From Streptomyces sp. Q6 (lineage in GTDB: Bacteria > Actinomycetota > Actinomycetes > Streptomycetales > Streptomycetaceae): 64,000 nucleotides of DNA. The stretch is taken from the NCBI RefSeq assembly GCF_036967205.1, contig NZ_CP146022.1, positions 8,308,001 through 8,372,000 on the forward strand. The letters run 5' to 3'. Of the stretch, positions 43,385 through 54,847 are shown piece by piece; the stretch's first letter is position 1, and the number at the start of each line of letters is the position of its first letter. Below the pieces are notes generated by a model that worked only from the letters and a program-made list of their open reading frames with translations, made no database searches and was not told the DNA's origin. The translations under genes and the position numbers were made by a program.

Positions 43385-44506
43385 TCACGCGGGGGTTGGG
43401 GCTTGCCCACCCGCCCGCCGTGGACGTCCGGTGCCGACCGGGCGCCGGGGGACGAGCGGAGCATCGGCCCTGTCGGCGCTGAGGGAACCGATGAGGCCGT
43501 GGTCCGGTGCCAGCGCGCAGGCGGGATCGGTACGGGAGGCGTCGCCGGTCAGGGCGAAGGCCTGGCAGCGGCAGCCTCCGAAGTCGGCGTCGCGCCGGTC
43601 GCAGGACCGGCAGGGCTGGGGCATCCAGGCGGTGCCGCGGTAGCGGTTGAAGGCAGGGGAGTCGTTCCAGATCCGGGCCAAGGGCTGATCGCGCACATTG
43701 GGTGCGTCGAGACCTGGCAGAGATGAGGCCGCCGGGCACGGCAGGACCGTTCCGTCGGGTGTGACGGTGAGGGACACGTTGCCCCAGCCGCCCATGCACG
43801 GCTTGGGTGTGCCGGTGAAGTAGTCGGGTTCGACCCAGGTGATGTCCAGGGAGACGTCGGTGCGCTCGCGCCACCGTGCCACCGTCGCGGCGGCTTCGAT
43901 GAGTTGGCCGCGCGTGGGCATGAGGGCGGCCCGGTTCAGCAGCCCCCACCCGTAGAACTGGGTGTTGGCGAGTTCGATCCGGTCCGCTCCCCATGACACG
44001 GCGAGTTCGAGGATCGAAGGCAGCGCGTCCAGGTTGTGACGGTGCAGGACGACATTGAGGCCCAGGGGCAGCCCGCGGTCCTTGACGCGGGTCGCCGCGG
44101 CTCGCTTGTCGTGCCAGGAGTCGCGGCCGGCGAGGCCGTCGGACTGCCCCGGATCGGAGTGCTGGACGGACAACTGCACACTGTGCAGGCCCGAGGTGGT
44201 GAGCGCGTCCAAGCGCGCGGCGGAGAGTCCGACGCCGCTGGTCACCAGTTGGGTGTACAGGCCCGCGTCGACCGCTGCCCGGACGAGGGCGTCGAGGTCA
44301 CGGCGGAGCAGCGGTTCGCCGCCGGAGAGGTGGGTGTGCAGGACGCCCATCCGCGCGGCCTCGGCAAAGACACGGGCCCAGTGCTCCGTGGTCAGCTCCG
44401 CCGAACGGCGGGTCAGCTCAAGGGGGTTGGAGCAGTAGCCGCATCGCAAGGGGCACGCGTGGGTGAGCTCGGCGAGCAGGGCCCAAGGGGGAGCGGGTGT
44501 GGTCAT
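43385..44506 (-). CDS. pqqE: PQQ biosynthesis radical SAM protein PqqE
   Basis: 373-residue radical SAM enzyme that forms the Glu-Tyr C-C crosslink on PqqA with PqqD as chaperone. The SAM cluster cysteines C18, C22 and C25 (CPLRCGYC) are followed by HLSGGEPLLRRDLD. The C-terminal SPASM region has auxiliary-cluster cysteines (CMGGWG, LPCPAASS, CRSCDRRDADFGGCRC and ACALAPDHG). The last 45 residues are Arg/Pro-rich. ATG 44506 overlaps the pqqD stop (ATGA). Last gene of the pqq operon. Confidence 0.96.
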   Translation of the reverse strand: MTTPAPPWALLAELTHACPLRCGYCSNPLELTRRSAELTTEHWARVFAEAARMGVLHTHLSGGEPLLRRDLDALVRAAVDAGLYTQLVTSGVGLSAARLDALTTSGLHSVQLSVQHSDPGQSDGLAGRDSWHDKRAAATRVKDRGLPLGLNVVLHRHNLDALPSILELAVSWGADRIELANTQFYGWGLLNRAALMPTRGQLIEAAATVARWRERTDVSLDITWVEPDYFTGTPKPCMGGWGNVSLTVTPDGTVLPCPAASSLPGLDAPNVRDQPLARIWNDSPAFNRYRGTAWMPQPCRSCDRRDADFGGCRCQAFALTGDASRTDPACALAPDHGLIGSLSADRADAPLVPRRPVGTGRPRRAGGQAPTPA

Positions 44507-44766
44507 CGGAGGCATCCCTGTGTACGCAGACGGTCCAGGAAGAGCGCGATGCCTTCGCGCTCGGCTTGTGCGGGGTGTTGCTCGACGAGGAGCGTGGCGA
44601 TGTCGTCGCCGGTGCGGTGTCCGTCGCACAGTTCGAGGACGGCCCGCGCCGAGCCGTGCAGGACGACCACGCGTTCAGGCAGGAGCAGGACGTGCGCCCC
44701 GCGCACCGGGTCGTGCCGCAGGAGTGCGCCCGGTGGCAGCGTGGGGCACCATGGCGCGCTGGTCAT
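44503..44766 (-). CDS. pqqD: PQQ biosynthesis peptide chaperone PqqD
   Basis: 87-residue winged-helix RiPP recognition protein that presents PqqA to PqqE. GALLRHDPVRGAHVLLLPERVVVLHGSA and ELCDGHRTGDDIATLL match the PqqD fold. A separate gene here, coupled by ATGA overlaps to pqqC upstream and pqqE downstream. Confidence 0.93.
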   Translation of the reverse strand: MTSAPWCPTLPPGALLRHDPVRGAHVLLLPERVVVLHGSARAVLELCDGHRTGDDIATLLVEQHPAQAEREGIALFLDRLRTQGCLR

Positions 44767-45515
44767 CGCGTGCTCCCGTCCCCGGCGTGCTGCACGCTGT
44801 CGAGCAGGCTCCACAGCACGTCGCATTTGAAGGAGAGCGCGGCCAGCGCCCGCTCCTGCTGTTCGGCGGTGATCGCCCACTGCTTCACCCAGGTCAGGGC
44901 CTCGCTGCCGTCGCGCCGCCCTTGAGGGACGCGCCGCTGGAAGTACTCCAGACCTTCCGCGGCGATCCACGGATAGCACCGAGGGAAGGCGTCGAGGCGG
45001 GTCAGCATGATCTGCGGGGCGCACAGTTCGGTGAGGGACGAGGCGACCGCCTCCAGAGCGCTCCGGGTGCGGCAGAAGTTGACGTAACCGTCGACAGCCA
45101 GGCGCACACCCGGCAGCAGACGCCGATGTTCGGTGAGCTCGCACCGGTCGAGGCCCACGGCTTCGCCGAGCCGGAGCCACCGCTCGATCCCGCCCTCCGC
45201 GTCCGTGGTCCCGTCGTGGTCCTGGATGCGCCTGATCCAGGAACGGCGGTGGGCCGCGGACTCCAACTTGCTGAGGATGAACGCGTCCTTGATGGGGATG
45301 TGGCACTGGTAGTAGAAGCGGTTCGCCACCCAGGTGCGCAGTTCGTCGGGGCTGAGGTCGCCCTCGTGCATGCGCCGGTTGAACGGGTGACGGTCGTGGT
45401 AGCGGGAGGCCGCCAGCCGGCGCAGTTCGGCCTCCAACTCGTCCGCGCCACGGGCCGCAGGGGGAGAGGACCGTACGGCGGCCGGATGGGAGCAGGGGGC
45501 GAGGGGACTGGTCAC
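44763..45515 (-). CDS. pqqC: Pyrroloquinoline-quinone synthase PqqC
   Basis: 250-residue cofactorless oxidase catalysing the final ring closure and eight-electron oxidation to PQQ. RYHDRHPFNRRMHEGDLSPDEL and WVANRFYYQCHIPIKDAF are strongly conserved, as is IQDHDGTTDAEGGIERWLRLGEA. GTG 45515 overlaps the pqqB stop (GTGA). The N-terminus has about 25 unconserved residues. Confidence 0.96.
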   Translation of the reverse strand: MTSPLAPCSHPAAVRSSPPAARGADELEAELRRLAASRYHDRHPFNRRMHEGDLSPDELRTWVANRFYYQCHIPIKDAFILSKLESAAHRRSWIRRIQDHDGTTDAEGGIERWLRLGEAVGLDRCELTEHRRLLPGVRLAVDGYVNFCRTRSALEAVASSLTELCAPQIMLTRLDAFPRCYPWIAAEGLEYFQRRVPQGRRDGSEALTWVKQWAITAEQQERALAALSFKCDVLWSLLDSVQHAGDGSTR

Positions 45516-46411
45516 AGCGGGATCACCATCCGGTCCTGGGCCACGTCGAGGCCGAGCGCGGCGAGGTGTTCGCGCTCGGGCGCCCCGGGGTCGGCCAGGA
45601 CGTTGCTGTTGTTGAGATGGGTGTAGTGGGCGCGCACCCCCAGGGCGTGCAGGCGTCGCGCGGTGCCGGTGGGGCCCAGCACGGGCAGATGGCCCATGGC
45701 CGATGCGCTGCGCTCGCTGAATCCCGTGCGGCGGGGTTCCTCCTCGTCGAGGAAGGTTCCGTCGATCAGGACACAGTCGGCCGCGGCGAGTTCGTCGTCG
45801 AGGCCGTCGGTCCACGCGGCCAGTGCCGGCAGGTACACCGCACGGCGGTCGGAGTCCGGATCCCGTACGCGCAGCGCCGAGCTCCAGGCGGGGTGGGCGG
45901 CCTCGTCGGCTGCGTAGCGCGGACGCTTGGACGACACAGGGACCGCGTGGACCTCGAGTCCGGCGACGACCGCCGGCGGTGCGTCCGTGCCGGACGGCAG
46001 GTGGTGCCAGGTCAGTTCGGTGTACGGGGCGAGGACTCGGCCCAGTGGGAAGCTGATCTGCAACGCCTTGCGCACGGGCTCGGTGCACCAGATCTCGATC
46101 CTGGCCGCCTCGCGCAGGCGCAACAGGCCCAGGGTGTGGTCCAGTTCGGCGTCGGTGAGGACCACCCGGACCACGGGGGTGCGCGCGTCTCCGGCACCCG
46201 GCCGCAGGGTGGGGTGGCTCTCCAGTTGTTCGGCGACGTCCGGGGAGGCGTTGGCGAGGAACCAGGGGCCGGTCGGGGTGCGGTGGAAGGCGAGCGAGTC
46301 GTGCAGGCGGCGGCGGGAGGGGTGCCGGCGTGCCCCGGCACAGCCGGGGCACGCGCAGTTCCACTGAGGCAGACCGCCGCCCGCTGCCGTTCCGAGCACA
46401 CGCAGCAGCAC
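45512..46411 (-). CDS. pqqB: PQQ biosynthesis protein PqqB
   Basis: 299-residue metallo-beta-lactamase-fold protein, proposed to hydroxylate the crosslinked PqqA-derived tyrosine. GTAAGGGLPQWNCACPGC is the family start with zinc-binding Cys residues, LTDAELDHTLGLLRLRE the metal-site strand, and HYTHLNNSNVL near the C-terminus. GTG 46411 lies 9 bp after the pqqA stop. Confidence 0.95.
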   Translation of the reverse strand: MLLRVLGTAAGGGLPQWNCACPGCAGARRHPSRRRLHDSLAFHRTPTGPWFLANASPDVAEQLESHPTLRPGAGDARTPVVRVVLTDAELDHTLGLLRLREAARIEIWCTEPVRKALQISFPLGRVLAPYTELTWHHLPSGTDAPPAVVAGLEVHAVPVSSKRPRYAADEAAHPAWSSALRVRDPDSDRRAVYLPALAAWTDGLDDELAAADCVLIDGTFLDEEEPRRTGFSERSASAMGHLPVLGPTGTARRLHALGVRAHYTHLNNSNVLADPGAPEREHLAALGLDVAQDRMVIPL

Positions 46412-46646: not shown

Positions 46647-47639
46647 CTACTTGCAGAAGGGCGCCTTGCCCATGGCCGACTCGATGCCGCCCAGCAGGAG
46701 CTTCTGGAACTCGGCGGCGCCGGGGAACGAGCCGTCGGTGGTGAAGTCCTTGGCGTCGTGGCCGAGGGTGGTCAGCCAGGCGCGGCCGCCGTCGTAGTAC
46801 TGGCACCAGGCGACCGGGTGGTTGTCGCCGTGCCCGGGGTGGTGGTAGTTGCCGGCGACGCCCTTGGCCAGGGTGCTCTCGTCGACCTCGGCCAGGACGC
46901 GGACCTTGGTGGGGGCGGGCACGAGGTTGTACCACTCGTCGGAGAACTCCCACCGGGAGGGGAGGTTCTTGGTGGAGACGTCCTTACGGTTGACGGTCTC
47001 CACGGTCCCGGGCTGGTTCGCGCCGTGGTCGTAGAAGTTCGCGTTGCCCAACAGGCCCTCGTACCAAGGCCAGTTGTACTCGGTTCCGAAGGCGTTGTGG
47101 ACGCCGACGAAGCCGCCGCCGCCCCGGATGTACTGCCGCAGTGATGTCTGCGCGGCGTCGTCCAGGGTGTCGCGGCTGGTGGAGTAGAAGACGACCGCGT
47201 TGTACTTGAACAGGGTCGCGGGGGAGGCGAGTTGGGAGACGTCCTCGGTGTAGTCGACCTGGAATCCGTTGTCGGCGCCCATGGTGAGCAGCGCCTTCTG
47301 GACCGTGTTCGTCTCGGTGAGCGGCGGGTTCATGCCCGGTGCCAGGGCGGGGCCGAGGTTGGCGTGCCGCGGTCCCGCGGTGCGGGTGTAGAGGAGGACC
47401 TTGTAGCCCTTGGCGGTGTCGAAGTTGCCCCAGTCGTGGTAGCAGCGGGCGTCGGTGCCGCGGCACACCCCGTAGTCGGGGTCGCCGAGTTGTCGGGCGC
47501 CCTGGCCGACGCGGCCCTGGGCCACGCTGAGGGTGCCGGTGGCGACCAGCGCGACGGTGACGGCGGCCGTTCCGACGACGCCGGCCACGGCGGTGGTGAG
47601 GGGGCGGAGCCGGCGTCTGCCGGTGACAGGAGGGGTCAT
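46647..47639 (-). CDS. Secreted or membrane-anchored ThuA-like protein
   Basis: 330-residue protein. A basic N-terminus and a long hydrophobic segment (about 14-40) form an uncleaved anchor or signal peptide. The rest is ThuA-like (glutamine-amidotransferase-like fold): KVLLYTRTAGPRH, AVVFYSTSRDTLDD, RGGGGFVGVHNAFGTEYNWPWYEGLLG, PVAWCQYYDGGRAWLTTLGHD. ThuA-like domains are tied to sugar utilisation. Between the quinoprotein dehydrogenase and pqqA in one minus-strand run, suggesting a role with that enzyme outside the cell. Confidence 0.88.
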   Translation of the reverse strand: MTPPVTGRRRLRPLTTAVAGVVGTAAVTVALVATGTLSVAQGRVGQGARQLGDPDYGVCRGTDARCYHDWGNFDTAKGYKVLLYTRTAGPRHANLGPALAPGMNPPLTETNTVQKALLTMGADNGFQVDYTEDVSQLASPATLFKYNAVVFYSTSRDTLDDAAQTSLRQYIRGGGGFVGVHNAFGTEYNWPWYEGLLGNANFYDHGANQPGTVETVNRKDVSTKNLPSRWEFSDEWYNLVPAPTKVRVLAEVDESTLAKGVAGNYHHPGHGDNHPVAWCQYYDGGRAWLTTLGHDAKDFTTDGSFPGAAEFQKLLLGGIESAMGKAPFCK

Positions 47640-47810: not shown

Positions 47811-49961
47811 CTACTTGACGACGATCTTGCCGGTGCTCTGCGGGGCCACCGGGTCGTTGTAGAAGTACTCGCCCGGGGTGGTGAACGTGTGGCTGGAGGA
47901 CTGGCCCGGCATGAGCAGGCCGGTGTCGAACTCGGCCTCGAAGAACGAGACCGCGCCGTGCGCGGACTTGTTGTCGGCCGGGTTGGTGAACGTGACCGTG
48001 GTGCCCGCGGCGATGCTCAGATGCTGCGGTGCCATGGCGTTCTGCGCCACCAGGCTCTCGCTCGTCCCCGGCGCGTTCTTCGCGCTGTCCCAGACCCGGC
48101 CCAGGGTGACGGTGTTCTTGGCGGTGTCGCCGCTGACGGCGGCTGTGCGGATCTGGTTGCGCTTCGAGGGCGGGGTCGGCGCGGCGGCCGGACCGACCTT
48201 TCCACCGAGCTTGAACGCCCAGAGATGGTCGCCCTTGGGGATGTCCGGGTACGGCAGCCCGTTGCCGCCCGCGAGCACCGCGACGTACTGCTCGCCGTCG
48301 ATCTCGTAGGTCAGCGGGCTGGTGTTGACGCCGGCTCCGCACTGCCAGCTCCACAGCAGGCTGCCGTCGCGGTCGTCGAGCGCGGTCAGGACGCCGTCGG
48401 GCCGGCCCTGGAAGAGGACGCCGCCGGCCGTGCTGAGGATGCCGTTGCCGTGGGCGAGGGACCAGTCGCCCTCCTGGCGCCAGGCGACGGTGTTGGTGCG
48501 CGGGTCGACGGCGGCCAGGCCCCCGGCGAAGTACTCGCCGAGCGGGCGGGAGGTGTTGACGCGGCCGCCGTGGGTGTTGGAGTACGCGGAGTTGATCAGC
48601 CCGTATCCCACGTAGACGAGACCGGTGCGGTGGCTGAAGGAGGGGAAGGACCAGTCGGCGCCGCCGCCCGCGCCGGGGAAGAGGATGGTGGCGCGGTCCC
48701 AGTGCACCTCGAACAGGCCGCCGGTCGGATAGAACGGGACGGGGCGGGTGGCCTTGTCGAGACGCGGCTCGGTCTCGACGAAGGGCTCGCCGCCGGGGAA
48801 CGGCTGGGTCGGTGAGGTCTTCTGCGCGGCGTGCTGGGGGACCGGGCGTTCCTCCATGCCGTGGACGGGCTTTCCGGTGGCCCGGTCGAGGATGTAGTAC
48901 ATGCCGGTCTTGCTGCCGTAGACGACGACCCGTGCCTTCTTCCCCTTGATCAGCAGGTCGGCGAGGACGGGCGACATGACGCCGTCGTAGTCCCAGATGT
49001 CGTGGTGGACGGATTGGAAGTGCCAGCGCCGCTTGCCGGTCTTGGCGTCGATGGCCACCAGGCAGTTGGCGAAGAGGTTGTCGCCGGCCCGGGTGGAGCC
49101 GTCGGTACGGGGATACGGGTTGCCGAACGTCCAGTAGACCAGGCCGAGTTCGGGGTCGACGGCGGGGTGGATCCAGCACACCGCGCCGCCGGTCTTCCAG
49201 GAGTCGCCCTCCCAGGTGTCGTGGCCGAACTCGCCCGGCCCTGGCGTGCCCCAGAACGTCCAGGCGACCTCGCCGGTGGCCGCGTTCAGGGCGTAGGCGC
49301 GACCGCGGGCGCCGGCGGTGCTGCCCTGGGTGCCGATGTAGACGAGGCCGTCCCAGTAGACGGCGGCGCCGGCCAGGCCGCCCTTGCTGCCGCCGCACTG
49401 GCCACTGGCCGGGTCGCAGTCGGGATCGCCCTGATCCTCGACGAGCAGTTCGCGGGTCCAGCGGATCGCGCCGGTCCTCTGGTCGAGGGCGACGACGGTG
49501 TTGTCACCGGTGATCGTGAACGCCAGGCCCTGGCCGAGGGCGAGGCCGCGCATGTTGGTGGTGTCCGAGCCGACCTTGGTCTTCCACCTGGTCTCGCCGG
49601 TGCGGCCGTCGATGGCGAAGACGTTCTGCTGGGTGGTGGCCAGGTAGAGGACACCGTCCTGGGCGATGACGGCGCACTGCTGATGGGTGGAGGTGGAGCC
49701 GTTCTCCAGGTTGATGTGCCAGGCGCCGCCCAGCTTGCGGACGTTGTCGCTGTCGATGCGCTGGAGCGAGGAGTGGTTCTGGTTCCCCAGATTGCCGCCG
49801 GCCTTCGGGAAGTTCTTCCCGGTCGCGGCGTGGGCCTGCGCCGGCACGGGACGGGCCCACGCCGCGGTGGCGGAAGCGGCTTGGGCCGACGTCGAGTTGA
49901 GCAGGGCGACGGTGCCGGCGGTGGAGGCCGCGGTGGTGGTGAGGAAGCTGCGTCTGTCCAT
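47811..49961 (-). CDS. Tat-exported PQQ-dependent dehydrogenase with C-terminal cupredoxin-like domain
   Basis: 716-residue quinoprotein. A Tat-type signal (MDRRSFLTTTAAS, cleavage near residue 29) is followed by an eight-blade propeller (about 45-590) with GDSWKTGGA, GNPYPRTDG (metal-ligand Asn N281), HHDIWDYDG (catalytic base D324, extra acidic D326) and GSKTGMYYIL (K351). The last 95 residues are cupredoxin-like (PQHLSIAAGTTVTFTNPAD, then FTTPGEYFYND), but the usual Cys-His-Met copper ligands are absent. Oxidises an alcohol or sugar outside the cell. The Asp two residues after the base resembles lanthanide-type enzymes. First gene of the dehydrogenase-thuA-pqq run. Confidence 0.93.
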   Translation of the reverse strand: MDRRSFLTTTAASTAGTVALLNSTSAQAASATAAWARPVPAQAHAATGKNFPKAGGNLGNQNHSSLQRIDSDNVRKLGGAWHINLENGSTSTHQQCAVIAQDGVLYLATTQQNVFAIDGRTGETRWKTKVGSDTTNMRGLALGQGLAFTITGDNTVVALDQRTGAIRWTRELLVEDQGDPDCDPASGQCGGSKGGLAGAAVYWDGLVYIGTQGSTAGARGRAYALNAATGEVAWTFWGTPGPGEFGHDTWEGDSWKTGGAVCWIHPAVDPELGLVYWTFGNPYPRTDGSTRAGDNLFANCLVAIDAKTGKRRWHFQSVHHDIWDYDGVMSPVLADLLIKGKKARVVVYGSKTGMYYILDRATGKPVHGMEERPVPQHAAQKTSPTQPFPGGEPFVETEPRLDKATRPVPFYPTGGLFEVHWDRATILFPGAGGGADWSFPSFSHRTGLVYVGYGLINSAYSNTHGGRVNTSRPLGEYFAGGLAAVDPRTNTVAWRQEGDWSLAHGNGILSTAGGVLFQGRPDGVLTALDDRDGSLLWSWQCGAGVNTSPLTYEIDGEQYVAVLAGGNGLPYPDIPKGDHLWAFKLGGKVGPAAAPTPPSKRNQIRTAAVSGDTAKNTVTLGRVWDSAKNAPGTSESLVAQNAMAPQHLSIAAGTTVTFTNPADNKSAHGAVSFFEAEFDTGLLMPGQSSSHTFTTPGEYFYNDPVAPQSTGKIVVK

Positions 49962-49966
49962 GGTCC

Positions 49967-49997
49967 CTCTTTCAGGAAAGAGCCTGACGGGCCGTCA
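49967..49997. promoter_or_regulatory. Two inverted repeats at the dehydrogenase start
   Basis: CTCTTTC-AG-GAAAGAG (49967-49982) includes the GAAAGAGG ribosome-site sequence of the dehydrogenase. Next to it is TGACGG-G-CCGTCA (49985-49997). The first could sequester the ribosome site in RNA; the second is a candidate operator. Confidence 0.4.
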
Positions 49998-50043
49998 AGG
50001 TTCGGCCGCGGTGTGCCAGGTGGGGGAGGGAGGAGAGCGAAAC

Positions 50044-50213
50044 GGATCACGATCCACCGGAACGGATCACGGTTCACCGGAACGGATCGTGGCCCACCGG
50101 AACGGATCGTGGTCCACCGAAAGGGGCATGGCCCACGAGAGCGAATCGCGGTCCAGGAGAGCGGATCATGGTCCGGCGGATCGGATCCTGTCCCATCGAC
50201 CGAATCATGGTCC
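50044..50213. repeat. Array of nine near-palindromic 12-mers, 19-20 bp pitch
   Basis: Cores begin at 50044, 50064, 50084, 50104, 50123, 50143, 50163, 50183 and 50202. Best core GGATCATGGTCC is a near-perfect palindrome; others differ at 1-4 positions. The first four spacers are almost identical (ACCGGAAC) and later ones have diverged. The array lies 83-252 bp upstream of the PQQ dehydrogenase and between it and the end of the lyase gene. Pitch near two helical turns would place bound dimers roughly along one DNA face. This region (49962-50311) holds no credible gene. Confidence 0.85.
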
Positions 50214-50311
50214 GCTAGGTGGTTCGATGAACCCGTATGATGGTTGCCGTTTGGCGGAAAGCTACGTTAGGTACGGCGCGGGGGTGTGGCAAGAGGGCGG
50301 GCGCGACTTGT

Positions 50312-51124
50312 TCAGGCCTGCTGCTGGGGCGGGAGGCGGGCCGGGAGGACGGAGCGGGGCAGGGGGCCCTTGTTGCGGCGCCCCTGGCCGGTTTCCTCCC
50401 AGGCGTGCGCGAGGATGCCGACCGATCGGCTGAGCACGAACAGGCCCCTGGCCAGGGGCGGTGGGAAGCCCAGCTCGGCGTAGATGACGGCGGTGGCACC
50501 GTCGATGTTCATCGGCACGGGGCGGGCGCCGCCGCGGCGGCGTGCGAGAGCGGATTCGACGGCCTGGGCGGCCCGCAAGTGGTCGCCGGCCACGATGCCG
50601 TCGGTGACGGCCTGGTCCACCAGGGCGAGGAGGGGGTCGCGTCGCGGATCGCGGGGATGGAAGCGGTGGCCGAAGCCGGGCAGGTACCGCGAGCGGCGCT
50701 GCCAATCGTCCATCACCTCCCGGGCGGCTGCATCCCACGTGTGGCCCGCCTCGTGCAGGGTGCGGACGTCGGTGAGCATCTCCACGCACTGCTGGCCCGC
50801 CCCGCCGTGGGCGTCGCCGAGCATGTTCACCCCGGTGGCGATGGCGTTGTTCAGGCCGACGCCGCAGGTGGCGGCCATCCGGGCGGCGGCGATCGAGGGC
50901 GCCTGCGGGCCATGGTCGACCCCGGCGACGAGGGCCGCTTCGAGGAGTGCCGACTGGCGGGAGGAGGGCAGGTCGCCGCGGAGCAGGAGCCAGATGATGT
51001 CGACGAACCCGACCTCGCCGATGAGCTGCTGGATGGGCCGGTCGCGCAGTTCGATGCTGCCGGGCTCGATGTGGCTGACCGCGGTGGCCCACCACTGTGC
51101 CGCTTCGTCCTCGGAGATGGTCAT
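50312..51124 (-). CDS. Small citrate-synthase-family lyase (citryl-CoA-lyase-like)
   Basis: 270-residue protein, the length of citryl-CoA lyases rather than the about 430 of citrate synthase. All three catalytic residues of the family are present: H106 in GDAHGGAG, H153 in GFGHRFHPRDP and D208 in MNIDGATAV. Likely cleaves a (hydroxy)acyl-CoA of the citryl or citramalyl type into acetyl-CoA plus a 2-oxo acid, or the reverse. ATG 51124 overlaps the CoA-transferase stop, so the two work together. It ends 98 bp from the nine-repeat array. Confidence 0.88.
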   Translation of the reverse strand: MTISEDEAAQWWATAVSHIEPGSIELRDRPIQQLIGEVGFVDIIWLLLRGDLPSSRQSALLEAALVAGVDHGPQAPSIAAARMAATCGVGLNNAIATGVNMLGDAHGGAGQQCVEMLTDVRTLHEAGHTWDAAAREVMDDWQRRSRYLPGFGHRFHPRDPRRDPLLALVDQAVTDGIVAGDHLRAAQAVESALARRRGGARPVPMNIDGATAVIYAELGFPPPLARGLFVLSRSVGILAHAWEETGQGRRNKGPLPRSVLPARLPPQQQA

Positions 51125-52332
51125 GAGGCGGTGGCCTCTTCGGTGGCCTCTCCGGCGGCGGCCGTCGCCCAGACCCGGGCCAGGTCGGCCCGCTCGGCGT
51201 TGTGCTGACCGAGCAAGGGTGGCGGGGAGGGCGGGGCGAACGCTTCCCCGTCGAAGAGCACGCCGTTGCCCACCACGCGCAGGGCCCGCTCGGGGCGGCC
51301 GGGGTGGGGCAGTGCGCTGACGAACCCGCGGTGTTCCAGCTGGGGTTGCTCCAGTGCCTGCGGGACGGTGAGCACGCGGGCCGCGGGTACGCCGGCCGCG
51401 TTGAGATCGCGTTCCCAGTCGGCGGCCGGACGGAGCGAGAGCGCGGCGTTGAGGGCGGCGTTGAGTTCCTCGCGGTGGCCCTTGCGGCTCTCCCGTTCGG
51501 CGAAGCGCGCGTCGGTCGCCAGCTGGGGCGCGCCGACCAGGCGGCACAGCGTCTCGAACTGCCCCTGCTGGTTGGCGGCGATGTTCAGCGGGCCGTCGAG
51601 CGTACGGAAGGTCCCCGACGGGGCGGCGGTCGGGTTCTGGTCGCCGAGCGGCTGCGGCGGGACCCCGCTGACCAGGTAGTTCGACACCGCCCAGCCCATG
51701 GTCGACATCGACGCCTCCAGCATGGAGACATCGAGTCTGGTCCCCTCGCCCGTGCGCTCACGGTGCAGGAGCGCGGAGGCGATGGCGAACGCGGCCATCA
51801 GGCCGCCGGTGGTGTCGCACACCGGAAAGCCGATGCGCTGGGGGGCGCTCTCCTGGGTCCCGGTCACGCTCATCATGCCGGTCAGGCCCTGGATGATCTG
51901 GTCGTAGGCCGGTGCCTCGCTCATCGGCCCGCTGTGCCCGAAGCCGGAGATCGAGCAGTACACGAGTCGCTCGTTGAGCGCGGCCAGCCGCTCGGGGCCG
52001 AACCCCATCCGCTCCAGCACGCCCGCGCGGAAGTTCTCCAGCAGGACGTCGGCGCCGGCCAGCAGGTCCTCGAAGACCGTGCGGTCGGCGGTGTCCTTGA
52101 GGTCGAGCTCCAGCGACTTCTTGCCCGCGTTCTGGGCGAGGAAGGAGGCCCCGATGCGCTCCCGGTTCAGCGTCGCGTCGGGACCCAGGTTGCGTGCGAG
52201 ATCCCCCTGTCCCGGTCGTTCGATCTTGATCACTTCGGCGCCCAGAAGCATGAGCTGGTAGCTGCAATAGGGTCCGGCCAGCACATTCGTCAGGTCCAGA
52301 ACGCGTATGCCGTCCAGTGGTCGTCCGTGCAT
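51121..52332 (-). CDS. CaiB/BaiF family III CoA-transferase
   Basis: 403-residue CoA-transferase. Opens with LDGIRVLDLTNVLAGPYC and GAEVIKIERPGQGD; the catalytic Asp is D173 in FPVCDTTGG. Transfers CoA between an acyl-CoA and a free carboxylic acid. With the downstream lyase it could activate and split a tertiary hydroxy-diacid. AAGGAG ribosome site. Follows the IclR gene by 38 bp. Confidence 0.93.
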   Translation of the reverse strand: MHGRPLDGIRVLDLTNVLAGPYCSYQLMLLGAEVIKIERPGQGDLARNLGPDATLNRERIGASFLAQNAGKKSLELDLKDTADRTVFEDLLAGADVLLENFRAGVLERMGFGPERLAALNERLVYCSISGFGHSGPMSEAPAYDQIIQGLTGMMSVTGTQESAPQRIGFPVCDTTGGLMAAFAIASALLHRERTGEGTRLDVSMLEASMSTMGWAVSNYLVSGVPPQPLGDQNPTAAPSGTFRTLDGPLNIAANQQGQFETLCRLVGAPQLATDARFAERESRKGHREELNAALNAALSLRPAADWERDLNAAGVPAARVLTVPQALEQPQLEHRGFVSALPHPGRPERALRVVGNGVLFDGEAFAPPSPPPLLGQHNAERADLARVWATAAAGEATEEATAS

Positions 52333-52370: not shown

Positions 52371-53138
52371 TTAGGTGCGCGGCCCCAGGGGGTGCGCGAA
52401 TCCCTGGGAGGCGATCCGCGCCGCGACCTCGATGAGGTCCTGTGCGAACTCCTTGATCGCCGACTCCGGGATGCGGGCGCTGGGGCCGCTGAGCGACAGA
52501 GAGGCGACGACCACACCGGACTGCGAGCGGATGGGCACGGCGACGGCGGTGAGGCCGATGTCGCGTTCGCCGTGGCTGGCGGCGAACCCGTGCTCGGTGG
52601 CCTCGTCGGCCCACAGCCGCAGTTGCTCCGCGTGCGCCACGCCGTGCGGCGAGGCGGCCGCGACGCGCTGCAACAGCCCGTCGGTGGCACCGATGAGCAG
52701 CACCTTCGACGAGGCGCCCGCCCACAGCGGCAGTTCGTCGCCGACCCGCACGACGTGACGCAGCGGTTGCGGACTCTCCTGCTGAGCGACGCACACCCGG
52801 TGGATGTCGCGCCGGATCATCAGGTTCGCCGTCTCGCCGCGCCGGTCCGACAGCTCACGCAGCAGCTTCTGGGTGTCGGCGGGCAACTCCCACCTGGTGT
52901 GGGCCAGATGGGCCCAGCGCCACAGGCCCGGTCCGGCGGTGTAGCCGCCGGGCGCCGCCCAGAGCAGTCCGTACTGCTCCAGGGTCTGCACCAGGCGGAC
53001 CACCGTGGTCTTGGGCAGGCCGGTGGCCTCGACCATGTCCCGCAGCGGGACCGTGGGCTGATCTTCAGTCAGCAGCGACAGGATGTCCAGAGCGCGCCGC
53101 ACACTGCGTACCCCGCCCTGTCCTTGCTCCGCGTCCAT
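52371..53138 (-). CDS. IclR-family transcriptional regulator
   Basis: 255-residue regulator. Winged HTH at residues 10-75 (RSVRRALDILSLLTEDQPTVPLRDMVEATGLPKTTVVRLVQTLEQYGLL). The C-terminal effector domain has WAGASSKVLL and RDIGLTAVAVPI, the small-molecule pocket region. It is divergent from the aldehyde dehydrogenase and upstream of the CoA-transferase, so it probably controls both arms, perhaps from the AAACCA/TGGTTT palindrome at 53314. Confidence 0.93.
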   Translation of the reverse strand: MDAEQGQGGVRSVRRALDILSLLTEDQPTVPLRDMVEATGLPKTTVVRLVQTLEQYGLLWAAPGGYTAGPGLWRWAHLAHTRWELPADTQKLLRELSDRRGETANLMIRRDIHRVCVAQQESPQPLRHVVRVGDELPLWAGASSKVLLIGATDGLLQRVAAASPHGVAHAEQLRLWADEATEHGFAASHGERDIGLTAVAVPIRSQSGVVVASLSLSGPSARIPESAIKEFAQDLIEVAARIASQGFAHPLGPRT

Positions 53139-53313
53139 GTCTCCTCCGTACGTCAGTGGCTACCGCCTTCCGAGCGGCGGCAGCTCTGGTGCGCCAGCTT
53201 CCAACAGCGCCGCTCCCGGGGGAAATCGCTGTTCCGAACTTCCTTGCGCCGACCTATTGCCACGGCCTCTCGGCGCCCGTACGTTACACGCCAGTCCACA
53301 GAGCAGTCCACGG

Positions 53314-53330
53314 AAACCACTAGATGGTTT
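53314..53330. promoter_or_regulatory. Candidate IclR operator
   Basis: AAACCA-N5-TGGTTT inverted repeat 15 bp before the aldehyde dehydrogenase start, in an otherwise GC-rich divergent region. Two direct copies of CAGTCCAC lie just upstream (53292 and 53304). The size suits IclR-family sites. Confidence 0.5.
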
Positions 53331-53344
53331 TTTCTGGAGATGTG

Positions 53345-54847
53345 ATGCTGCAAGACCTCCTCAAGGCAGCCGACTCGGCCGATGTCGTCGACGCTCTGCC
53401 TCTCATCGCCGGAACCTGGGGCGGTGAAGGCCCGGCGCTGGAACGCACCGGCCCCTACCTCAGACGCCTCGTCAGCCGGGCGCCCACCGCCACGCCCGCC
53501 GACATCGCGAAGGCCCTGCACCACAGCCACCGGTTCGCCGACCAGGTCGCCTCGCTGGCACCCGCCGCGCGCGCCGACATCCTGCAAGCCGCCTCCCACA
53601 CGGCGACCGCGCACCGCGACCGGCTCGCCCGGCTGCTCGCCCTGGAACTCGGCAAGCCGCTCAAGGACAGCCGCACCGAGATCGACCGGGTCGCCTCCAC
53701 CTTCGCCGTCTGCGCCGCGGAGGCCCGCCGGATCGACGGCGAGAACCTCCCGGTCGCGGGCTGGGACACCGGCATCGGCAACACCGCCCTGACCTACCGG
53801 GCCCCGGCCGGCGTCGCGTTGGCCATCACCCCGTTCAACGCACCGGCCAACCTGCTCGCCCACAAACTGGGCGCCTCCTTCGCCGCGGGCAACACCACCC
53901 TCGTCAAAGCCCCACCGCAGGCCCCTGCGATCTCCACCGCGATCGTGGCGCTGCTGCTGGAGAGCGGCATGCCCGACCAGGCCGTGCAACTCCTGCACGG
54001 CGGCGGGGACATCGGCGCGGCCCTGTGCGCGGCCCAGGAGGTGAGCGTCATCAGCTTCACCGGCAGCGCCACCACCGGCGCCGCCGTGGCCCGCGCCGCC
54101 GGAGCCAAACGCCTCGCCCTCGAACTCGGCGGCAACGCCGCCACCCTCGTCTGCGACGACGCCGACATCGAGACGGCCGCCGTCCTGTGCGCCAGGAACG
54201 GCTACAGCAACAGCGGCCAGAGCTGCATCTCCGTCCAGCGCGTCTACGTCCACCGCAGCCGCTTCGACACCTTCCTCGACGCCTTCACCGCCGCGGTCGA
54301 CGCCCTGGTCGTCGGCGACCCGCTGCACGAGGACACCGACATCGGATCGATGGTCGACGAGGACGCCGCCGAACGCGTCGTGCGGTGGTCCGAGGAAGCC
54401 GCCGCACTCGGCGCGACCGTGGTGCGCGGCGGCACCCGCGACGGCGCCACCGCCGCCCCCACCATCATCGCCGCGCCGCCCGCCCACGCCTCCGTCGTCG
54501 TCCACGAAGTGTTCGGCGCCCTGGTCGCGGTCATTCCCTACGACGACTTCGACACCGTCCTGGACGCCTGCAACGCCAGCCGCTACGGACTCCAGGCCGG
54601 CCTGTTCACCCACGACGTGCGCCGGATCCTCACCGCCTGGCGGCGCCTCCAGGTCGGCGCCCTCATCGTCAACGGATCCTCCAACTACCGCCTGGACCAC
54701 GTCCCGTTCGGCGGGGTCAAGGACTCCGGCTTCGGCCGCGAGGCACCCCGCTGGCTCATCGACGACTACACCGTCGTCAAGACCCTCATGCTGCGCGGCC
54801 TGTCCGTCTGGGGCGAGCTCCGCGAACTGCCCAAGGAGACCTCGTGA
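53345..54847 (+). CDS. NAD(P)-dependent aldehyde dehydrogenase
   Basis: 500-residue ALDH superfamily enzyme. ITPFNAPANLLAHKLG, SFTGSATTG (cofactor), E260 in LELGGN, C294 in NSGQSC and the C-terminal PFGGVKDSGFGRE are all present. Probably oxidises the aldehyde made by the adjacent ThDP enzyme, as the genes overlap (GTGA). GGAG ribosome site 7 bp before ATG 53345. First gene of a seven-reading-frame IclR-controlled unit. Confidence 0.93.
   Translation: MLQDLLKAADSADVVDALPLIAGTWGGEGPALERTGPYLRRLVSRAPTATPADIAKALHHSHRFADQVASLAPAARADILQAASHTATAHRDRLARLLALELGKPLKDSRTEIDRVASTFAVCAAEARRIDGENLPVAGWDTGIGNTALTYRAPAGVALAITPFNAPANLLAHKLGASFAAGNTTLVKAPPQAPAISTAIVALLLESGMPDQAVQLLHGGGDIGAALCAAQEVSVISFTGSATTGAAVARAAGAKRLALELGGNAATLVCDDADIETAAVLCARNGYSNSGQSCISVQRVYVHRSRFDTFLDAFTAAVDALVVGDPLHEDTDIGSMVDEDAAERVVRWSEEAAALGATVVRGGTRDGATAAPTIIAAPPAHASVVVHEVFGALVAVIPYDDFDTVLDACNASRYGLQAGLFTHDVRRILTAWRRLQVGALIVNGSSNYRLDHVPFGGVKDSGFGREAPRWLIDDYTVVKTLMLRGLSVWGELRELPKETS

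Follow-up and report, generated by a model that had tools for sequence, protein, structure and literature searches.

Which protein, if any, reads a run of nine short near-palindromes in front of a gene for a PQQ-dependent alcohol dehydrogenase, and do nine copies do anything that one would not? The run lies in a 64,000-nucleotide stretch (here the window, with positions counted from its first letter) that is part of the 8.95-Mb genome of Streptomyces sp. Q6. The original prediction, made from the sequence, described nine noncoding 12-bp near-palindromes at 19- to 20-bp spacing, best preserved nearest the dehydrogenase, and suggested cooperative binding of a regulator or an origin-like iteron set.

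Layout of the array

The array (50044..50213, minus strand) was confirmed, with 12-mers starting at 50044, 50064, 50084, 50104, 50123, 50143, 50163, 50183, and 50202. Six of the steps between units are 20 bp and two are 19 bp. In the sense of the gene, each unit reads approximately GGACC-N2-GATCC, with spacers of 7 to 8 bp between units, and the spacer sequence is most alike among the units closest to the dehydrogenase, as predicted. Tandem Repeats Finder, with no consensus supplied, called the array at 50041-50187 (period 20, 7.4 copies, score 112), the top score among its 19 rows for the window. The chain of nine near-consensus 12-mers at 19 to 21 bp compares with a longest chain of two in 200 first-order Markov simulations of 64 kb each, for a consensus derived from the array itself. 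Palindromic pairs amount to 3 to 5 of 6 per unit and 36 of 54 overall, versus at most 20 of 54 in the other 19 registers. A general palindrome measure was rejected as a distinguishing mark of the array, since other rows score higher: the best-palindrome value of the array consensus is 4 of 6, and four other Tandem Repeats Finder rows reached 5.

Genome scans with a single consensus were uninformative. That with the 12-mer gave 163 matches (89 forward and 74 reverse) and its backward control gave 2; the control contains CTA, which is rare in Streptomyces. With a 17-mer consensus (at most two mismatches) there was no enrichment in the genome, with 220 matches versus 262 for the control. A looser pair pattern, allowing three mismatches, matched only the array and one other site in the whole genome. 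A two-unit pattern with at most one mismatch was found in 15 of 392 genomes of the genus, at five places here and at one place in each of the other 14, the latter being known from the pattern scan alone.

Gene neighborhood

The array is intergenic, between a citryl-CoA-lyase-like gene (50312-51181, minus strand, stop at 50312) and the gene for the 716-aa PQQ-dependent alcohol dehydrogenase (47811..49961, minus strand, start at 49961), and its period of 20 is no coding period. The order on the minus strand is an IclR-family regulator (52371..53138; 255 aa, PF01614 and PF09339), which is the proposed binder; a CoA-transferase-like gene (start about 52332, named by eye) and the citryl-CoA-lyase-like gene, both upstream of the promoter; the array; the dehydrogenase; and, downstream on the same strand, a ThuA-like protein gene (46647..47639) and the PQQ biosynthesis genes pqqB, pqqC, pqqD, and pqqE (43385..46411), the name pqqC resting on gene position and sequence. 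On the plus strand, divergent from the regulator gene, stand an aldehyde dehydrogenase gene (53324..54847, with a likelier start at the in-frame ATG 53345 after GGAG), a gene for a thiamine-diphosphate enzyme, and transporter-like genes that look, by eye, like those of a branched-chain amino-acid-type ABC transporter. The best NCBIfam model for the regulator, BhcR, scored below its cut-off, and the second best was the PcaR/PcaU/PobR subfamily at 102.2 bits, which does not reach the cut-off of 284.75. The C-terminus of the dehydrogenase (47811-48100, minus strand) forms what we take, by eye, to be a cupredoxin-type domain, one that is without the usual cysteine copper ligand.

The dehydrogenase leader and its core operator

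The array had been placed upstream of the dehydrogenase. It does precede the start of the gene, but it sits inside the 5' leader, just 3' of a conserved promoter-like sequence, TTGCCA-N17-TAACGT (50264..50292, minus strand), that relatives also keep, with little variation in its distance to the operator. A generic sigma-70 scan of 49900-50400 reported no promoter; we call a likely promoter here because of this conservation in relatives. Between the promoter-like sequence and the bulk of the array is a conserved core operator, CAACC-N7-GGGTT-N4-GAACC-N7-GGACC (50209..50246, minus strand), which consists of two 17-bp inverted repeats 21 bp apart and whose final box doubles as the first of array unit 50202. 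It was matched by two profiles, R1 (26.3 bits) and R2 (34.6 bits), both trained without the window sequence. A third box, GATTC (50202..50206, minus strand), is equivalent to the single GATCC box of near relatives. The complete operator plan of pair and third box occupies 50202-50246, with the array carrying on from the final two boxes of this plan. With TAACGT as the -10 element, the span from about +12 to +56 would belong to the core operator and third box, and the array would reach to about +214.

One unit in relatives

The dehydrogenase was found in 11 of 392 genomes of the genus, the present one counted (E up to 1e-100), and 15 close orthologues (L013 to L027) with 67 to 89% identity are among the matches listed from a named collection that holds at least 79 loci. 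The matches listed contain 15 distinct Streptomyces relatives at 17 loci, L015 and L020, whose operators are identical to those of L005 and L009, being taken as duplicates of these. The relatives' leaders have in common the promoter-like TTGYCA-N17-18-TAACGT (spacer counted by eye; TAGCGT in L009) and the operator plan NNNCC-N7-GGNNN-N4-NNNCC-N7-GGACC-N2-GATCC, that is, two 17-bp inverted repeats with centers 21 bp apart and a third box. The distance from the T of TAACGT to the first operator box is 22 to 23 nt in 14 of 15 relatives and 11 in L016, and that from TAACGT to GGACC is 55 to 56 in the same proportion and 44 in L016. The third-box part is GGACC-N2 followed by GATCC, GAGCC, or GATCG in 14 of the 15 distinct relatives; the third box was lost in L007.

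In each of the 15 distinct Streptomyces relatives among the matches listed, the 440 bp ahead of the gene contain one unit only, without an array. Only in the present genome, among the same matches, does a 20-bp stretch with the operator's last two boxes occur as nine copies, inserted exactly there. When the window is aligned with seven near relatives, its 150-odd additional bases come directly after the third box and both flanks are aligned, which indicates that the array arose by tandem duplication inside the operator. Queried with the leader DNA, 41 genomes around G087 gave the operator region of G087 itself and an unrelated 20-bp repeat in G012, and nothing else.

In other actinobacterial genera the operator palindromes are more complete, with the form GGTCCGYCTAGYGGACC; their spacing is often 21 bp, and one gap can hold as many as four. 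Pairs of 17-bp GGTCC/GGACC palindromes 21 bp apart were seen in dehydrogenase gaps of Amycolatopsis, Actinoallomurus, and Actinoplanes; the palindrome-pair gaps are L023 5787-5937, L024 5791-5941, L019 5810-5847, and L027 5817-5854. Each of two Amycolatopsis gaps holds four such sites, and the number of sites seems to vary between genera.

A second operator beside the regulator gene

A second paired operator is located in the gap between the IclR and aldehyde dehydrogenase genes (53293..53330, minus strand; plus-strand plan AGTCC-N7-AGTCC-N4-AAACC-N7-GGTTT). It matches the dehydrogenase operator when read in the direction of the IclR gene, on the minus strand. The same gap contains TTGCCA-N17-TACGTT (53257-53285, plus strand). 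The 12/9/12 box spacing of the gap operator was found in the window and in 7 of 7 relatives examined, and this operator has no third box.

This operator was first spotted by eye, and its counterparts in relatives then formed part of the training set of profile R1. For the cross-test, a matrix was built from the dehydrogenase operators of the 15 relatives only and scored at full length on both strands of each gap. The expected register, in the IclR direction, ranked first in 8 of 8 gaps (the window and 7 relatives). The window score of 8.3 is reached by 2.3e-6 of 1,724,966 background positions, a rate that, over the 350 positions of a gap, amounts to about 1 in 1,200. The gaps of three far relatives scored about -5, which 2e-4 of background positions reach, and the expected register still ranked first.

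Profile R1 was made from 20 operators of relatives (15 dehydrogenase and 5 gap), and its top two matches genome-wide were the core operator (E 6.4e-5) and the gap operator (17.9 bits, E 0.03). Because R1 was trained on both promoters, these top two alone do not show a shared motif. The third match (13.8 bits, E 0.63) falls in a hairpin beside genes that by eye are pst-like; with no comparable match past the first two places, no further site was seen that would widen the regulon. In a genome-wide search with R2, which was trained on dehydrogenase operators only, the gap operator was not listed at E up to 10, and within the window R2 matched a 13-base piece of it at 5.8 bits, in sixth rank. A matrix from the gap operators, used in the plus-strand direction only, did not recognize the dehydrogenase operators (-3.0 bits in the window). 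Neither R1 nor R2 matched the remainder of the array.

An orthologue of the IclR regulator (60 to 90% identity) was present in 23 of 23 dehydrogenase-bearing genomes queried, relatives from Actinoallomurus, Actinomadura, Amycolatopsis, and Actinoplanes among them. In 21 of the 23, the coordinates place it no more than about 12 kb from the dehydrogenase; in G557 and G559, judged from contig numbers, it is on another contig. The genome of S. fulvoviolaceus, from which L014 derives, has a second close IclR relative with 66% identity on another contig (G550:C3:231522-232271).

Fit to IclR-family operators

In the part of PMC8222616 that deals with binding motifs, IclR-family sites of group 1 are given as the inverted repeat GKTYCRYW3-4RYGRAMC, those of group 2 have the reversed arrangement with boxes 1 to 2 bp apart, and three-box sites combine the two. 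The same part describes tandem sites with centers 18 to 22 nt apart in 94 orthologous groups, ascribed to tetramer binding. Measured against group 1, GGACC as the right box agrees, and agreement is close for the GGTCCGYCTAGYGGACC forms seen in other genera; the left box of the Streptomyces dehydrogenase operators is mostly GAACC or AAACC and departs from GKTYC at two or three positions. The tandem spacing is 21 bp at both core operators and 19 to 20 bp in the array, within the published range. Three boxes were found at the dehydrogenase operators of 14 of 15 distinct relatives, and a gene for an IclR-family regulator is linked to the locus.

The box spacing of the core operator agrees with the published sites. 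The array units themselves show the group 2 arrangement, and the 7 to 8 bp between them is the spacing of group 1. Scored against RYGRAMC-N2-inverse, the nine units have 10 to 13 of 14 letters (mean, 11.9), versus a background mean of 5.7 in which 0.05% of positions reach at least 12. Weak boxes occur in unit 50123, with 4 of 7 letters in its left box, and in two others with 5 of 7. Among 34 multi-copy rows from 864 kb of this genome, window included, the array has the highest IclR box score (13 of 14; next best, 10), and a score of at least 12 was found in 2 of 217 Tandem Repeats Finder rows of period 12 to 100, the array counted.

The three-box operators of PcaU, PobR, and HmgR, as portrayed in that part of PMC8222616, likewise have a 17- to 18-bp inverted repeat with a close, reversed third box; what differs here is that the part from box 2 to box 3 is repeated nine times. 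The tandem sites described there likewise have a 19- to 21-bp pitch, and the core operator likewise has two sites; those accounts are of tandem or adjacent sites and mention no run of nine such as that of the array here. BldC on Streptomyces direct repeats (PMC5859096) also forms a chain of regulators over sites of variable length, but this MerR-like protein has a head-to-tail mode of binding to direct repeats, while here the boxes are inverted and the neighboring regulator is of the IclR family. The original prediction had it that no PQQ-regulon element of this sort is known. This stands for the array, since no nine-unit IclR-type array was met in the literature searched (open-licence papers), but not for the unit, which is a known kind of operator; the operator type is already known, and the nine-unit expansion is new as far as that literature goes. 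No paper on IclR regulation of a Streptomyces PQQ alcohol dehydrogenase operator was found in the same open-licence literature.

Probable in-place expansion, selection, and rival readings

The operator plan of the relatives, the cross-test on the gap, and the fit to IclR motifs together suggest that an IclR operator was expanded in place from one unit to nine. We therefore consider it probable, though well short of certain, that in the array we see the operator of this cluster's IclR-family regulator after expansion by tandem duplication, and we hold with similar confidence that this regulator would bind the array. An effect of the array on expression that is kept by selection seems somewhat less likely than its absence. 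The evidence that selection keeps the array is modest. In the first eight units, box columns are 80% identical between units versus 56% for other columns, the best of 20 registers (exact column permutation p = 0.0136, treating the units as without kinship).

The most serious rival, and a possible but less probable one, is that a 20-bp stretch, by chance with part of the operator in it, was multiplied by slippage or unequal crossing-over, leaving a neutral minisatellite whose extra units are without effect. In its favor, of the 16 distinct Streptomyces genomes that carry the locus among the matches listed, one has the array, and the units nearest the gene have common spacers, a sign of recent copying. 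Tandem arrays are also common in this genome, with 35 rows, some overlapping, of period at least 12 and at least four copies in 864 kb, and, among rows whose period is no multiple of three, five from elsewhere than the window outscore the array in a count made without regard to coding status. A 20-bp, 3.6-copy repeat also precedes an unrelated gene in another genome. Against it, the boxes are better conserved than the spacers at the p value given above, which ignores unit kinship; the two 19-bp steps shorten spacers and leave the boxes intact in length; and both boxes have at least 5 of 7 letters in eight of the nine units. The original prediction had named two signs of a neutral repeat: homologous loci without it, and the same repeats scattered at unrelated genes. 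The array is indeed absent from homologous loci, yet one unit is kept in all 15 distinct Streptomyces relatives among the matches listed, and no second copy of the array occurs in this genome.

Two other repeats were recorded in passing. The one in G012 (L149 1480-1551, on G012:C1) is a 3.6-copy, 20-bp tandem repeat with 94% matches, upstream of a gene that by eye is TauD-type dioxygenase-like and beside a transposase-like gene. In the present genome, near 6.31 Mb (L185 10729-13404), a 276-bp repeat occurs in 9.7 copies, its period being divisible by three.

It is unlikely that the array acts as a decoy, soaking up the IclR regulator and leaving less of it for the IclR/aldehyde dehydrogenase promoter instead of imposing a local block. 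This reading overlaps with the preferred one in that IclR binds the array, and nine array units do compare with few core operators genome-wide; there is no evidence of an effect at a distance, however, and a local block would fit the leader position no less well.

Less likely still is binding of the units by a regulator other than the cluster's own IclR protein. The boxes are short, and the two operators of the cluster are alike in one direction only, as another regulator would allow, but the operator is accompanied by the IclR gene in 23 of 23 genomes queried, a related operator adjoins iclR, and both the arrangement of boxes and their spacing follow the IclR family.

Very improbable, finally, is an RNA leader element or an origin-like iteron set: the array is transcribed if the promoter call is right, and iterons are often about 20 bp, but the leader RNA folds about as stably as shuffled versions of itself (z -1.30; equalled or bettered by 9 of 100), Rfam gave no match at the gathering score, none of 72,556 plasmid records matched the array, and no replication gene was found among the nine proteins of the region that were family-searched. 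The neighbors examined in this catabolic operon are catabolic and PQQ biosynthesis genes and, by eye, transporter genes instead of the replication gene or origin that accompanies iterons, and the relatives keep the locus without the array; the iteron part of the original prediction finds no support.

Proposed mode of action

The comparison shows the sequence plan, its conservation, and a related operator next to iclR; the promoter itself, the identity of the binder, the direction of regulation, and the cooperative filling described below are inferred. In the preferred reading, that of an expanded IclR operator, the IclR protein would bind the core operator as a pair of dimers. It would also bind the array, in which boxes alternate between GGACC-N2-GATCC and GATCC-N7/8-GGACC, and dimers may cooperatively fill one site after another, about 20 bp apart. 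In the array the spacing (7 and 12 to 13) is unlike that of the core operator (12/9), so binding to the array would need a second dimer arrangement. Of the earlier idea that a regulator binds cooperatively along one DNA face, the binding gains support from the comparison, which points to a conserved IclR-type operator; the single face is only approximate. At 10.5 bp per turn, the sites drift backwards through almost a full turn and are not strictly on one face, so contacts would be neighbor to neighbor.

A repressor bound there would hinder transcription at an early stage, and with a chain of dimers the block would be firmer and its release steeper. Since the operator and array lie downstream of the probable transcription start (about +12 to +214), the likely effect would be tighter and steeper repression of the dehydrogenase until an inducer appears. 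The ThuA-like and pqq genes would be repressed too, if they are on the dehydrogenase's transcript. A more speculative extension, to which we give a low probability, is that the array is a long filament site for IclR, on which dimers spread from the occupied core operator through both dimer arrangements, that the number of units sets the sharpness of induction, and that strains tune the dehydrogenase by slippage.

A repeat with the look of an orphan is now tied to a specific candidate regulator, and a small IclR regulon for the PQQ alcohol dehydrogenase cluster is predicted in several actinobacterial genera. The natural nine-unit ladder provides material for asking in what way the two dimer arrangements proposed for IclR-family proteins are put to use, and it also bears on whether operator number tunes induction.
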